Source: Ornithodoros turicata (lineage: Eukaryota; Arthropoda; Arachnida; Ixodida; Argasidae). From it: a stretch of 64,000 nt of DNA. Within the stretch, counting starts at the first letter, position 1. Every line of letters begins with the position of its first letter. The stretch lies in the NCBI RefSeq assembly GCF_037126465.1, contig NC_088203.1, positions 104,060,409-104,124,408 on the forward strand, read 5' to 3'. A program made the translations under genes and the position numbers. The notes under the pieces were generated by a model that made no database searches, was not told the origin of the DNA, and saw only the letters and a list, made by a program, of their open reading frames with translations. Shown piece by piece: positions 3,612 to 54,013 of the stretch.

Positions 3612-3836
3612 TTCTTTGCTGGCGAATAACCATGGGACGGCGTACGAATGATAGGGTTATCGCTTCCGATTCGAGGAGAGAGCGGGGCGTACGCCTTTTT
3701 GTGACAATTTGAATATACGCTAATTGCCACAAAAAGGCGTACGCCTCCCTCTCTCCTCGAATCAAAACAGATAACCGTATCGTCCGCGGCAGTGATTGGC
3801 GCACTACGTGCTATGCGGTGAAGTTCTGTTTTTAGA
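3612..3836. repeat. Fold-back element with GGCGTACGCC arms
   Basis: Inverted arms at about 3641-3709 and 3722-3790 around a 12-bp spacer. The inner 39 bp of each arm are nearly identical (AATT..CACAAAAAGGCGTACGCC then CTCTCTCCTCGA). Weaker pairing extends outward to about 3612 and 3836. One arm recurs alone at 19924-20034. It abuts the 5' end of the LINE fragment that follows. Fold-back MITE class; superfamily unknown. Confidence 0.7.
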
Positions 3837-4322
3837 GGCAACGAACGAGCGGACCAGCTAGCTTCCTCAGCACACAACAGCTGCAGCCCATCCTTAGCAG
3901 TCCCGGCCGACACTGACAGGCTCTTGGTCGTCAAACAGCTAGTTGAGGTGCGTCACCCTGGCATACAGGACATCATGCAGAATCACCGACCCTCTCTCCC
4001 CACGAAAGATCTTCCCCGTGGTATGCAGACAATGCTCCATCGATTACGCACAGGATCTGCTTTCACGAACTCTCAACTGTGCAAGATCGGCTCCAGGGAG
4101 GATTCCAGTTGCGGACACTGTAATCATCCGGAGACAATTGCGCATATCCTGACAGAATGCCGTGCATACCATGCCATGCGGGAAACCCATCTTCCCCACG
4201 CCAGGCCTGGTATACTGACGGACGTCCTCTTCCCCGAAGGTTCTTGTGCGGAACGACTTTCAAAAACTCGCGGCCTCGTGCGCTTTCTCCAAGCAACGGG
4301 CCTAGCGGAGAGACCACTCTAG
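3837..4322 (+). pseudogene. LINE ORF2 C-terminus: RNase H end and zinc knuckle
   Basis: One open frame from 3837 to 4322. It begins with GNERADQLASSA, the conserved C-terminal motif of the RNase H domain in I-type LINEs. It continues to LHRLRTGSAFTN and the zinc-knuckle-like CGHCNHPETIAHILTEC (about 4117-4170). It ends in the usual LINE tail, LSKTRGLVRFLQATGL. The RT and most of RNase H are absent: either a 5'-truncated insertion or cut by the fold-back element at 3612-3836. Non-autonomous. Confidence 0.8.
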
Positions 4323-4509: not shown

Positions 4510-6600
4510 TGTTTTTAGAGTGTAGGACTGCGGATATTTGCGACCACCTGGCGCTCTTTTGACGTGCGTCGAAAATCTCTCCGACACGCGGTGCTGGAAC
4601 ATTAGCAATCAATTTGCATCACTGCCAAAAATAACAGCAACAACAACAATAACAGATAGATTAATGATGATGAATGGGGAAAGAAATAACAGCACTTAGA
4701 AGAAGTTGGACAGGAAATAACGATCGGCAGTCGATAGAATTTTCCCTTAATCAAACATCATTTCCATCAGAAGACCTGGCCTGACTTTTAGAATAATTAA
4801 TGCGTGTCATTCTGTGGAACGCAAGCTGTCTTAGGAGAACGGCTTTGAACTAAAACCTCTCATATTTGACGTTTACTCGAACAAGACGAAGTTCTGCTTA
4901 AACAAACAAGCACATTACGGGAATAACCTGGAATAAAAAGTGCGGGTAGAAAAGAAGTCGTGCTGCCTTGTGTAGACAGTGCAGTGAAAGGCAGTGACCG
5001 GAACGCGGCCTCAAATGCGTCTCAAGAAGCCCATTTGCACGAATGCAATTTCGAGCCACGTGGGCACCGCAGCAGACCCCCCCCCCCCCCGCCCCCGCGT
5101 TGACAGAATTCGTGTTCAGGAGGTAAGAACAATATGAGAGTGTGTAATCAGTAACGAAAACAAAATGGCGAGAAAATGCGCGACCAGCAAATCCTTTGTG
5201 CCATTCAGAGATAGATAAATATGTAGGTAACTGCTGGTCCGAACGGTTCGCTGGACGCTCGTCTTCTTGATCTTCATGACGGGCTATACTCTTCCATAAA
5301 GTAGCCAAACAAAACCTTCTGGAGGTATATGCCGCGCGCTACTGCGCCTGGATCAGTATGACGTAGAATCAGCGTTAGCGAGCAGTCGCGAAGTCTTATT
5401 TCCCACCGAAGATTCGTCTGCTACGGACAGGGCGCGGCGCGGCGTACTCTCTACGTCACGGAATGACGTCACCATCACTCGTTCGCTTGCGGCCTCTCTG
5501 AACGAGTTGAGGAGCTCTAGAGGATGCGCAGATCAAAGACATCTCTCTCGCGCAAGAGTTTAGCTCATCAAATTTTAGCTCAAGAGTTTAGGTCATCGTT
5601 ATTGCGCAAGAGCGCGCATTATTTGTTGCACAATCACCCGCGGCCAAACAGGAAAAGTTCATGGAGAGAGCTCTCAGAGATCCTTTAATTATGGATCACT
5701 CTCATCAGCCCTACTCCCGTTGGAGAAACAAAACCCCATCGCAAGACGTAACATCTCAATGATCCTCCCGTCCGCAGACTGCCATCAAATTACCCAAAGT
5801 ATTGTTCCACCCTCTTGATCCTCTTACCTCTCTACCGCAACCCATCCCCATCTGTCTGTCACAGACAACCTCCCTAAGGACCGTCTCATTGTGTGCATCT
5901 CCCCATGGTATATGTATCCTGCCTGACCATTACCTCTATTAAATACAGGGAGCTGACAGATCCAAGACCTTTCCATTCAAGCGCCTGTATTCTCGCGACA
6001 TCCCGCTTCGCGAGATTGAGTGCAGTGCGCACACAATGCGTATATTAGAGGGGACTGTTCCCGTTGCACTCTCCCGAATAACGGTGCACAGTGTGCATAT
6101 TTAAGGACGCTGCCTGCTAGATAATAGGGATGCATTGAGAGTGCGTCTGTAGAGGAGAACTTCGGACGGATGGGTGTGGGATATTACGGGCACGGCTGTT
6201 GTAGTGCGTTCTGGAGTTAGTGTGGTTAACTTTCATTGTATGAAGTGCGCCGTGTCGCATGGAGTGCTCACCCGGTGTCTTTCTTCGTTGACGGTGCATT
6301 TTTATCAATCATTTTTTAATTTCTCTATTATTTGACGCCTCCCCCCCCCTTTTTTTTTACTATGAGGCATTTTGTTCTATTTCGCTTATACATACACCTG
6401 GATATAATCCTCGAATACTGAACTGTCACTGTAGGTAGTCTTCGATCTCGCCGAGTTCTCAAAGGTGCAAGTGGCTATTAGATCAAAACCACCCTTCTGA
6501 TGTAAGTTTTTCAGTTCGAACTACCAAACAGTCAATTTCGCGAAATAATCGAAAGAGAAAACACCTTATCTAATGACACGATACACTATCGATACACTGT
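4510..6600. other. Unassigned, low-complexity patches
   Basis: No gene recognised. It holds an AAC-rich LINE-like tail near 4630-4655 and a run of 14 C at 5077-5090 followed by GCCCCCG. There is a small direct repeat of aagagtttagctcat-type words at about 5555-5605 and a C9/T9 run near 6342-6358. Confidence 0.35.
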
Positions 6601-17317: not shown

Positions 17318-17649
17318 TAGTTACGCAGCCGCTAAAATCAATGACGTATTTCGCATCATCCGCTGGAGTATTCTGGGGAATGTCACTTGTGTGAATACAT
17401 GGAATAATGCGGTTTGCTCGTCTTTTTTATTCATCCACAGTGACTGTTGTGTTCTATTCTGCAGCAGCAGAGTCCATAATTTTCTGAAAAGGCTGTCTCC
17501 ATTTCCTCTTTCCTTTCCTCTCTCTCTCTATATATACATATATTTGAAAACAAACCACATTATTCCATGTATTCACACAATTGACATTCCACAGAATACT
17601 CCAGCGGATGATGCCAAATACGTCATTGATTTTAGCGGCTGCGTAACTA
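17318..17649. repeat. Inverted-repeat element, about 100-bp arms
   Basis: Arms 17318-17419 and 17548-17649 are over 90% complementary by eye, starting TAGTTACGCAGCCGC and including CATCATCCGCTGGAGTATTC. The spacer is about 128 bp and pyrimidine-rich. It ends 15 bp before the first ribozyme repeat. No TSD resolved. Confidence 0.8.
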
Positions 17650-17663
17650 CCCAGCGTATAACT

Positions 17664-17836
17664 GCGCAGCTACCCAGGGCTGACGAGCCGCAAACACGGC
17701 GAAACACGTGTCCTCTGATGCTGTCGCTTCGTTCCATGAGTATCTGTTTCTCTACGTGCAGCCATAGAAGCCATCTTAATCTGCAAGTTTGAATTTCAAA
17801 CACATCTAGCGTCATTTACTTATTTCTTTCATGGCT
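17664..17836 (+). repeat. Direct repeat unit, copy 1 (ribozyme-bearing)
   Basis: About 173 bp repeated at 17952-18124 with only a few differences. It holds a hammerhead motif at its 5' side, then CGTTCCATGAGTATCTG and TTTGAATTTCAAACACATC. The offset between copies is 288 bp. The 115 bp between the copies is not present after copy 2, so this is about 1.6 units of a 288-bp tandem. Confidence 0.9.
17674..17718 (+). ncRNA. Type I hammerhead ribozyme, copy 1
   Basis: Self-cleaving RNA fold. The core CTGACGA at 17680-17686 is followed by stem II, GCCG/CGGC (17687-17690 with 17697-17700), with loop CAAACA. Then comes GAA (17701-17703), a minimal stem III formed by ACACGTGT (17704-17711), and the cleavage triplet GTC ending at 17712. 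Stem I pairs CAGGG (17675-17679) with CTCTG (17713-17717), 5 bp with one G-U. The tiny stem III is characteristic of hammerheads in Penelope-like retroelements and metazoan retrozymes. Predicted cut between 17712 and 17713. Activity is inferred from the fold only. Confidence 0.8.
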
Positions 17837-17951
17837 TTTCTCCTCTCTTTATAATTCACTGGCTTGCACTGTGGCGTTGAGGAGTGCTCAGTCGCCCTCC
17901 CAGGTGTATATCGCTCGCTGAGTGACCCCTGGTTTGCCAATCCCGAACGAT

Positions 17952-18124
17952 ACGCAGCTACCCAGGGCTGACGAGCCACAAACACGGCGAAACACGTGTC
18001 CTCTGGTGCTATCGCTTCGTTCCATGAGTATCTGTTTCTCTACGTGCAGCCATAGAAGCCATCTTAATCTGCAAGTTTGAATTTCAAACACATCTAGCGT
18101 CATTTACTTATTTCTTTCATGGCT
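17952..18124 (+). repeat. Direct repeat unit, copy 2 (ribozyme-bearing)
   Basis: Second copy of the 17664-17836 repeat, in the same orientation. After it the sequence passes into a (TA)n run near 18134-18155 instead of the inter-repeat sequence that follows copy 1. Confidence 0.9.
17962..18006 (+). ncRNA. Type I hammerhead ribozyme, copy 2
   Basis: Same architecture: CTGACGA at 17968-17974, stem II GCC/GGC (17975-17977 with 17986-17988), GAA at 17989-17991, stem III ACACGTGT, GTC ending at 18000. Stem I pairs CCAGGG (17962-17967) with CTCTGG (18001-18006), 6 bp. Stem I gains the sixth pair that copy 1 lacks; stem II loses its fourth pair (A78/C85 numbering within 17900s). Cuts at 17712 and 18000 would release a 288-nt RNA. 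Confidence 0.8.
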
Positions 18125-18768
18125 TTCCCCCCTCTTTATATATATATATATATATTGACGTTCCAAATATACGTATTCGTGAATATCAAAAGAACAAAAA
18201 GAGAGATTCTGCAGAGAGAGAGAGAGAGATTCTGCAAGGGATTTTTTATACTACTTGAGGGCTGTTCTCTGCTATGGCTTGCGTAGTTCACATGAGTCAG
18301 CAGCTAACGTCGTTGTAATGTGTCGTGGACGACAAGGTTGGTTCGGTTTCGGATTGCAAATCATATTCTTCGAGGAAGTGACGCTTGAAACAAAAAGTCG
18401 ATTGGACACCGTTCTTTCCCTTTCACTCGTACCACCGAATATTTGTTGTCAAAAAAGCCGAAATTTATAATCTCGAAATCCCGGGATTTCGGGATCCCGG
18501 GCTCCGAACCCTAATTAGTTTCCTCTAGGGTACAGCACGCATTCGAAACCGTGCTGGTTTAGGATCATAACATCTAACCTCCAATATTCTACTGGTGTAG
18601 CCCAACTAAAAGACCGCGCTTCTCTGGATAACGCGTCATTCAGGAGGCGTATCTCACGCTTTTTTTTTTGTAAACTTTTTCTATCCCTCTTTCCATCACT
18701 TTGTGTGTTCTCTTTTGAGGTGAGATAAAACGCTCCGTATTTCACTTCGGCGAGTTTTAGTTTATCGG

Positions 18769-19039: not shown

Positions 19040-19253
19040 CAGGTACGTTTGCTCGAACGCGTCCAGAAATTTTATTTGAAGCGAGCGATAAAAGAGAAAC
19101 GAGCGCTACTTTTCAGCTACTTGACTAAGAAACAGGTGCTTCTAATGTGAAGCAGTACGCGTTTCTTACTCAAGTAGCAGAAAAGTACCACTTGCTTTTC
19201 TTTTATAGCTCGCTTCAAATAAAATTTCTGGACACGTTAGAGCAAACACCCTG
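19040..19253. mobile_element. 214-bp palindromic TA-target MITE
   Basis: The two halves are complementary almost throughout (words CCAGAAATTTTATTTGAAGC and TAAGAAAC). Termini CAGGTACGTTTGCTC / CAGGGTGTTTGCTC with TA on both sides (19038-19039, 19254-19255). The central TAAGAAACAGGTGCT palindrome is shared with the otherwise different MITE at 13641-13851. Confidence 0.85.
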
Positions 19254-53353: not shown

Positions 53354-54013
53354 ATGTATGTACACCCGCAGGATGCGGCAGAGTGTGCACACGTTTCACC
53401 ACTGGGTACCACAATTCGGGGTTTCGCAGCCATTGCTGCTCCCCTATACGCCCTGCTGTCTAAGGACATTAAGTTTGACTGGACAACAGACTGCGCACGC
53501 GCCTTCCCATGCCTTGAGTCGGCGCTTACCACCGCCCCTGTACTATACGCCTCTTTGGCACCTGCGCACCCACAGAGGTCCATACAGACGTAAGTGACAG
53601 TTCTCGCTCAGCGTTTTCCTGACGCTCCCATGCAGCATGCTGTCACATTTGCGAAGCGCCGCCCTGACGAAATCGAGCGGAACTATACGACGATGGAGAA
53701 AGAGTTCTTACCGTTTGTGTGGGCCGTCAGGAAATTTCTCCTCTCCGGCAAACCGTTCGTAGTCGTTACCGAACACCCCGCACCATGTTGGCCCCATTCT
53801 CTGAATGACCCCTCGGGACGCCTTGGAAACTGGATTCTTCGTCTACAGGAATTCGATGTGACCATAAAGTCGGGTCGGAAGAACTCAGATGCGGATGTGC
53901 TGTCGCGCTGCCCATTGCCTTACGATGAACAACACCACGAGTCTTTACCCGAGTTGGTCACACCTCTCTGTCCTCTCGTGTCCTGTGACGCCGCCTCTTT
54001 TCGTGAGGAGTAA
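53354..54013 (+). pseudogene. gypsy RT connection and RNase H domain
   Basis: A single frame broken by one in-frame TAA at 53591-53593. IRGFAAIAAPLYALLSKD and FDWTTDCARAFPCLE belong to the RT-RNase H junction. RRPDEIERNYTTMEKEFL and FLLSGKPFVVVTEH are RNase H motifs, and GNWILRLQEFDVTIK..., ending DADVLSRCP, closes the domain. RNase H would remove the RNA strand during replication of the element. Dead copy. Confidence 0.85.

Follow-up and report, generated by a model that had tools for sequence, protein, structure and literature searches.

A hammerhead ribozyme pair in a tick genome: probable insertion of a metazoan retrozyme with Penelope-like anatomy

Two candidate hammerhead ribozymes (HHRs) on the same strand, 288 nt apart inside a direct repeat, raise the question of what element they belong to and how that element moves. 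They lie in a 64-kb stretch of DNA from the tick Ornithodoros turicata (64,000 nt, hereafter the window), where the original prediction assigned them to a metazoan retrozyme or to the terminal repeats of a Penelope-like element (PLE). LINEs and PLEs are the candidate movers of animal retrozymes, with PLEs called a strong candidate, in the available part of Cervera and de la Pena (2020; PMC7229834). As we read the sequence, the pair is probably one insertion of a metazoan non-LTR retrozyme, moved as an RNA circle by PLE machinery. The sequence itself contains hammerheads with covariation, tandem units, two preferred 3′ ends that in the fetched loci mostly pair as A with B, insertions whose units diverge little, and, in the same genome, a PLE built on this plan; from these we infer HHR cleavage, ligation, circularity, and this PLE or a relative as the source of the enzyme. 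The hammerhead features are as follows:

17674–17718, + strand: type I hammerhead copy 1, predicted cleavage after C17712 (RF00163, 34.5 bits)
17962–18006, + strand: type I hammerhead copy 2, predicted cleavage after C18000 (RF00163, 36.8 bits)
17713–18000, + strand: 288-nt unit, u1–u288, the product expected from two cleavages (spacing of 288; period of the genome arrays)
17665–17843, + strand: direct repeat copy 1 (repeat comparison)
17953–18131, + strand: direct repeat copy 2, 97% identical (repeat comparison)
17945–17950, + strand: GAACGA, predicted to form the 5′ arm of an extended stem I (folds of copy 2 and of the modelled circle junction)
17729–17734, + strand: UCGUUC, predicted to form the 3′ arm of this extended stem I, u17–u22 (same fold)

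When checked against the Rfam covariance model RF00163, both copies scored above its gathering score of 34, and they were the only Rfam matches in the window at the gathering threshold, which bears out the claim of two type I hammerheads 288 nt apart in a direct repeat. Each spans the complete type I model (1–45), with stem I, CUGACGA, stem II, GAA, ACACGUGU and the cleavage-site C. Stem I has five pairs in copy 1 and six in copy 2, as had been noted; as a correction, the fourth pair of stem II is lost in copy 2 (A.C). The core pattern (CTGANGA, 13 N, CGAAA, 5 N, GTC) is exact at both sites and occurs nowhere else in the window even with one mismatch; two or more matches arose in 1 of 100 dinucleotide shuffles, a comparison in which the window copies, being duplicates, are not independent. 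The exact HHR patterns had no match in viral or prokaryote sequence collections, and an Rfam HHR search of 14 control prokaryote genomes gave 0 matches. The direct repeat is present at 179 nt and 97% identity, rather than at the 173 bp first given, and its copies show three differences within or beside the HHR; beyond these, they diverge only towards the repeat's 3′ end. In computed folding of the window HHRs, a rival fold was more stable than the hammerhead (−13.0 and −14.6 versus −7.4 and −7.7 kcal/mol), and the 288-nt RNA folded no better than shuffles (z −1.16), with no unusual structure. The GAACGA that precedes copy 2 is missing before copy 1, as would be expected if the insertion is 5′-truncated.

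Further copies of the repeat, looked for across the genome (1.07 Gb), were readily found: the insertion gave at least 190 matches from the best 39 of 1783 candidates, many of them tandem with a period of ~288. Many matches span query 44–536, corresponding to window 17663–18155. With the unit numbered from the base after predicted cleavage (u1 = 17713), the window copy is a 5′-truncated insertion of ~1.7 units, running from u241 to u141:

17665–18155, + strand: retrozyme insertion, 5′-truncated, ~1.7 units, ending at site A with a TA tract after it (repeat, genome matches)
17745, + strand: site B (u33) in unit 1, not an end here (second preferred 3′ end in genome copies)
18141, + strand: site A (u141), 3′ end of the window insertion (preferred 3′ end in genome copies)
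18137–18155, no strand: (TA)n tract at the 3′ end of the insertion (sole tract of (TA)≥5 in the 64-kb window)

Position 17664 was dropped as a fixed 5′ end, since 5′ ends vary among copies. No target site duplication was seen by eye outside the TA tract in the listed flanks. Immediately left of the insertion lies an inverted repeat (17318–17649; 99-nt arms at 96%, 134 nt between them), which is unsupported as part of the element, since the element has no match in the 600 nt on that side; it may represent flanking sequence copied in as filler at the 5′ junction, or else an independent hairpin element.

The family agrees with the metazoan-retrozyme reading in its 288-nt type I HHR units, arranged in short and long tandem arrays and dispersed genome-wide. 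In the available part of PMC7229834, metazoan non-LTR retrozymes likewise have type I HHRs (here RF00163 matches in both copies, with covariation), small tandem units of 150–450 bp (here a 288-nt period at many loci), dispersed copies, and PLEs in the same genome. The words "tick" and "Ixodes" are absent from the main text of that paper. The HHR repeats of newt and axolotl, as described in the same part, share the very short stem III with a palindromic loop suited to cleavage as a dimer, in units of ~330 and ~350 bp versus 288 nt here. Plant LTR retrozymes (PMC4918200, PMC7761336, available parts) are similar in being non-autonomous and in the model of a circular RNA processed by HHRs, but differ in having type III HHRs, LTRs, a primer binding site and 4-bp target duplications; the window HHRs match the type I model, not type III. 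Among the fetched loci, the longest blocks hold ~27 units (L033) and ~29 units (L045), and there are at least five HHR families, three of them with C at position U4 of the core. A whole-genome Rfam search that scored 74 of 204,865 loose candidates gave at least 72 matches. A further retrozyme-like family has a 233-nt unit and was seen in L031 (182–700) and as a ~55-unit array at G000 C3:106824423–106837050.

The 3′ ends were typed in two samples, the first comprising the window and 38 regions around the best matches to a query containing the A end, the second 20 loci around exact B ends, taken in listing order from contig C1. Over both, 95 of 100 3′ ends fall at u125–141 (A) or u25–33 (B), with a TA run, scored within 16 nt of the end, beside 90 of these 95. 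Sample 1 contributed 58 3′ ends within sequence (40 A, 14 B, 4 other) and the B-anchored sample 2 contributed 42 (17 A, 24 B, 1 other); as the query of sample 1 contains the A end and sample 2 was picked by exact B ends, these counts do not estimate the genomic A:B ratio. TA runs followed A ends in 38/40 and 16/17 cases and B ends in 13/14 and 23/24 (samples 1 and 2), and preceded 5′ ends in 6/55 and 2/43 (8/98 overall). Genome-wide there are 489 exact A ends and 248 exact B ends (0 in reversed-pattern controls), and 47 of the 93 TA tracts of at least 16 nt in 217 kb of fetched loci lie at exact A or B ends. On the unit, A follows site B by 108 nt; counted round the circle, B comes 180 nt after A. 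The 5′ ends are scattered and coincide with the cleavage site in 1/55 and 1/43 cases (those inside head-to-head insertions counted), which argues against linear cleaved monomers as templates. A retrozyme-like satellite that spread with no reverse transcription, through unequal crossing-over or rolling circles of DNA, and whose inverted arms arose by later rearrangement, would suit the long arrays (~29 units in L045, ~55 in the 233-nt family) and their internal homogeneity; it is very improbable in view of the hundreds of dispersed exact 3′ ends with TA, the variable 5′ ends, the opposite arms that are identical in five insertions and the retroelement DNA captured between the arms in L060/L061.

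Neighbouring minus/plus blocks at most 250 nt apart were taken as head-to-head pairs, and the 31 insertions of this kind comprise 26 A–B, two A–A, no B–B and three with an untyped end. Sample 1 accounts for 16 pairs (12 A–B, two A–A, one B with an untyped end, one untyped) and sample 2 for 15 (14 A–B, one B with an untyped end), with none in 9 of its 20 loci. An exact-motif test on C1 below 188.66 Mb (100 A ends and 36 B ends of the CCATGAG type) gave 0 A–B head-to-head pairs within 12 kb, five A–A pairs at four loci and no B–B pair; tail-to-tail neighbours were five A–B, one A–A and one B–B. This test is a poor one, since the exact A motif is missing from every partner in the B-anchored loci, and L031, L038 and L043 use the CAATGAG form of B; pairs of exact A with CCATGAG B do occur, in L011, L013 and L042. 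In the fetched retrozyme loci A–B pairing mostly prevails, its strictness limited by the contrary exact-motif result on C1. L060 and L061 are two copies of a composite in which retrozyme arms surround 1.66 kb of other retroelement DNA with an LTR-retrotransposon integrase and a second fragment (DUF5641), and which resembles the capture of DNA between PLE repeats.

L1-style twin priming produces an inversion with two priming sites. Movement of the retrozyme by a LINE in this manner, rather than by a PLE, would fit inversions of this form, and a retroelement reverse transcriptase (RT) remnant is present in the window. Both outer ends, however, are preferred internal positions, the PLE of the same genome has the same plan, and no poly(A) tail occurs in the listed 3′ ends, so that transport by a LINE appears improbable. 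PLEs themselves form head-to-head copies with a tail on one arm, for which the authors of PMC3846280, in its available part, favour self-priming on an antisense template. Such an origin of the inverted arms, in place of priming from both cut DNA strands, was suggested there for rotifer PLEs, and palindromic junctions of this type are seen in L060 and in the flank of L010; with A and B as outer ends in 26/31 pairs, nearly always with TA runs, we regard it as unlikely. Priming from both strands at a TA target directly explains A–B outer ends with TA runs. Two 3′ ends, TA tracts and A–B head-to-head pairs are not described for metazoan retrozymes in the available part of PMC7229834, and the tick family differs further in its common U4C variant. 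A literature search joining "retrozyme" and "head-to-head" found no paper.

The units of an insertion, often including those of its opposite arms, have a haplotype in common, as though a single RNA circle had served as template. Full-unit divergence is 0.0054 on the same strand of a locus (950 pairs, 703 of them from L033 and L045), 0.0154 between opposite strands (82 pairs) and 0.0439 between loci. Adjacent full-unit pairs diverge by 1.1% (n = 137), and the longest arrays are nearly uniform (mean divergence of 0.08% in L033 and 0.16% in L045). The nearest unit lies solely within the unit's own locus for 137 of 174 units, but units are monophyletic in only 13 of 27 loci and the arrays of L014 and L029 are heterogeneous, both of which count against a single template. 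In 15/16 cases the distance between opposite arms is below their mean distance to other insertions; the arms are strictly mutual closest in 7/16, with four ties, and another insertion is closer in 5/16 (L013, L019, L036, L038a, L046). The arm consensuses are identical across the full unit in L011b, L025, L030, L031 and L042. Homogenisation within arrays may contribute to the low divergence, although it explains identical inverted arms less easily.

The genome copies also bear on whether the hammerhead matters to the element. Free variation of core bases, which would speak against a functional ribozyme, was found only at u257 (U4), where 246 units carry T in 89 and C in 157; the remaining core columns are at least 97% constant. 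At the level of insertion consensuses, U4 is C in 23 and T in 17 (n = 40). Median array divergence is 0.7% for C (15 loci) versus 2.5% for T (13 loci), and the U4-to-C core variant dominates the younger copies sampled. Variable columns number 1/45 in the HHR versus 41/243 outside it in C4 copies, and 6/45 versus 44/243 in T-type copies, where the HHR is thus not exceptionally conserved (rank 97 of 288 windows); over all insertions its rank is 112, or 28 when u257 is left out. Covariation is pronounced: in 14 HHR rows from five families, 96.4% of cells are paired, 43 of them changed on both sides, and the score of 0.548 compares with a shuffled mean of 0.145 (0/500 reach it) and with at most 0.09 when slid. 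All three helices covary among families, and the inner pairs of the palindromic stem III do so too, in keeping with action as a dimer; palindromic stem III was noted earlier for Aedes and others (PMC3088659, available part). The template might instead be an uncleaved multimeric transcript, with the HHR dispensable for transposition. HHR mutants of an anole PLE leave insertion in vitro unaffected (PMC11167929), and the dominance of C4 in younger sampled arrays, the heterogeneity of L014 and L029 and the unexceptional conservation of the T-type HHR lean the same way, while the near-uniform L033 and L045 arrays, the single variable HHR column of C4 copies and the covarying helices lean towards a circle. 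We treat a multimeric template as a serious but minority possibility.

The same genome carries a PLE of comparable plan. A genome search for GIY-YIG gave at least 150 matches (150 scored of 3506 candidates), with frames of up to 981 aa and many minus/plus neighbours; one copy, L067, has a PLE frame with RVT_1 and GIY-YIG. The closest relative of a PLE protein of this genome is from the soft tick Ornithodoros turicata (58% identity), with Ixodes next among named matches. PLE end A, TTTCTCCCCTATCTA(TA)n, occurs 79 times in the genome and end B, CCTAAATTTTGTAG..(TA)n, has 175 matches, some double-counted, with 0 for the controls of each. Site B lies ~39 nt after A, unlike that of the retrozyme, 108 nt before A. 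The second arm ended at B in 10/10 fetched head-to-head pairs, chosen for an exact A on only one arm. On C1–C5, 26 of 43 exact PLE A ends (25 of 93 B ends) have an exact head-to-head partner of the other type within 12 kb, where about 0.0008 per end would be expected by chance; 17 A ends and 68 B ends are without an exact partner, and exact A–A, B–B, tail-to-tail and same-orientation pairs are all 0. Artefacts of assembly or library fold-back could be suspected behind the head-to-head structures: the flanks of the PLE copy in L067 are inverted (1–182 and 6208–6389, 182 nt at 100%) with end B on both sides, either an inverted duplication or an assembly fold-back, and those of the A–A insertion L046 also look inverted by eye. 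Fold-back, however, gives identical ends, yet A–B makes up 26/31 retrozyme pairs and is the sole PLE type on C1–C5, and an artefact is extremely unlikely. A short HHR-like motif lies 91 nt before end A in L067 and is present in 10/10 fetched PLE arms; in our reading it is a minimal PLE hammerhead, but the PLE has no HHR at Rfam level, which weighs against the proposed mobilisation. L067 2149–5769 encodes a GDSL-esterase-like ORF1, one TGA and then an in-frame RT/GIY-YIG ORF2, with possible recoding at the TGA; Athena PLEs are among the other retroelements known to have GDSL ORFs (PMC5408684, available part).

The likeness of the retrozyme to PLEs covers head-to-head copies, an optional second 3′ end (the "tail") on one arm, two internal starts, an AT-rich target, partial tandems and the capture of foreign DNA (PMC3846280, PMC11167929, in the parts available). 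It differs from them in having a 288-nt unit without PLE protein. Searched by tblastn with the PLE ORF1 and ORF2, the whole window gave no match (best E 0.30); Pfam scanning covered two of the six frames of its 10–25 kb segment. The statement that no Penelope RT lies in the window agrees with the tblastn result, and terminal repeats of a PLE are not borne out for this locus, but the hint of a PLE has substance in another form, as the anatomy of the insertion is PLE-like and the PLE of the same genome shares its two-ended plan. PLE remnants occur in 16/58 retrozyme loci, a raw count, and at two places on C1 an exact retrozyme A end faces an exact PLE end across one TA tract. Homology between PLE and retrozyme termini was considered and set aside as weak and only suggestive (reached by 84 of 2000 shuffles). 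This PLE or a relative would, on the shared anatomy, be what moves the retrozyme.

A cycle can be proposed in which tandem copies would be transcribed and HHRs, probably aided by dimers formed through the palindromic stem III, would cut the RNA into 288-nt units that a host ligase would close into circles. The PLE RT/GIY-YIG protein would then cut both strands of TA-rich DNA, and reverse transcription would start at a point within the circle, usually around u141 (A) when primed by one strand and around u33 (B) when primed by the other, and run several times round it. Simple or head-to-head inverted arrays would result, with outward 3′ ends next to (TA)n. A PLE protein is known to cut and extend both strands of AT-rich DNA from two internal start sites; for the anole PLE in vitro, however, the start site was the same for top and bottom strand, without the strand difference suggested by A–B pairing in the tick retrozyme (PMC11167929). 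This absence and the distances between arms weigh against the model and against a strand rule. Much less likely is a detailed version in which one PLE complex, perhaps a dimer, acts on one circle with A and B assigned by strand, the telomerase-related RT itself lengthens the TA tract, and U4C has spread by selection for a slower, circle-sparing ribozyme; if this were true, the (TA)n tail left by an insertion could be the target for the next retrozyme or PLE.

The tick genome provides an anatomical test of the retrozyme mobiliser, as retrozyme and PLE share TA tracts, two 3′ ends and head-to-head pairing; the resemblance of units within an insertion to copies of one template is part of the same test. 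Sites u33 and u141 are defined sites for in vitro work, and the pairing raises the question of whether the two strands use different starts of PLE reverse transcription. The frequent U4C variant is a natural test of the hammerhead activity that a retrozyme needs. Elsewhere in the window, at 583–1071, 3822–4322 and 53594–54013, are remnants of a retroelement RT (RVT_1), of a zf-RVT candidate that falls below cut-off and of an LTR-retrotransposon-type RNase H. A MITE-like hairpin lies at 19047–19247 (97-nt arms at 86%, 7-nt loop), with a match to a miRNA model below gathering, and part of a sequence that resembles it by eye is found in the flank of the retrozyme locus L019.
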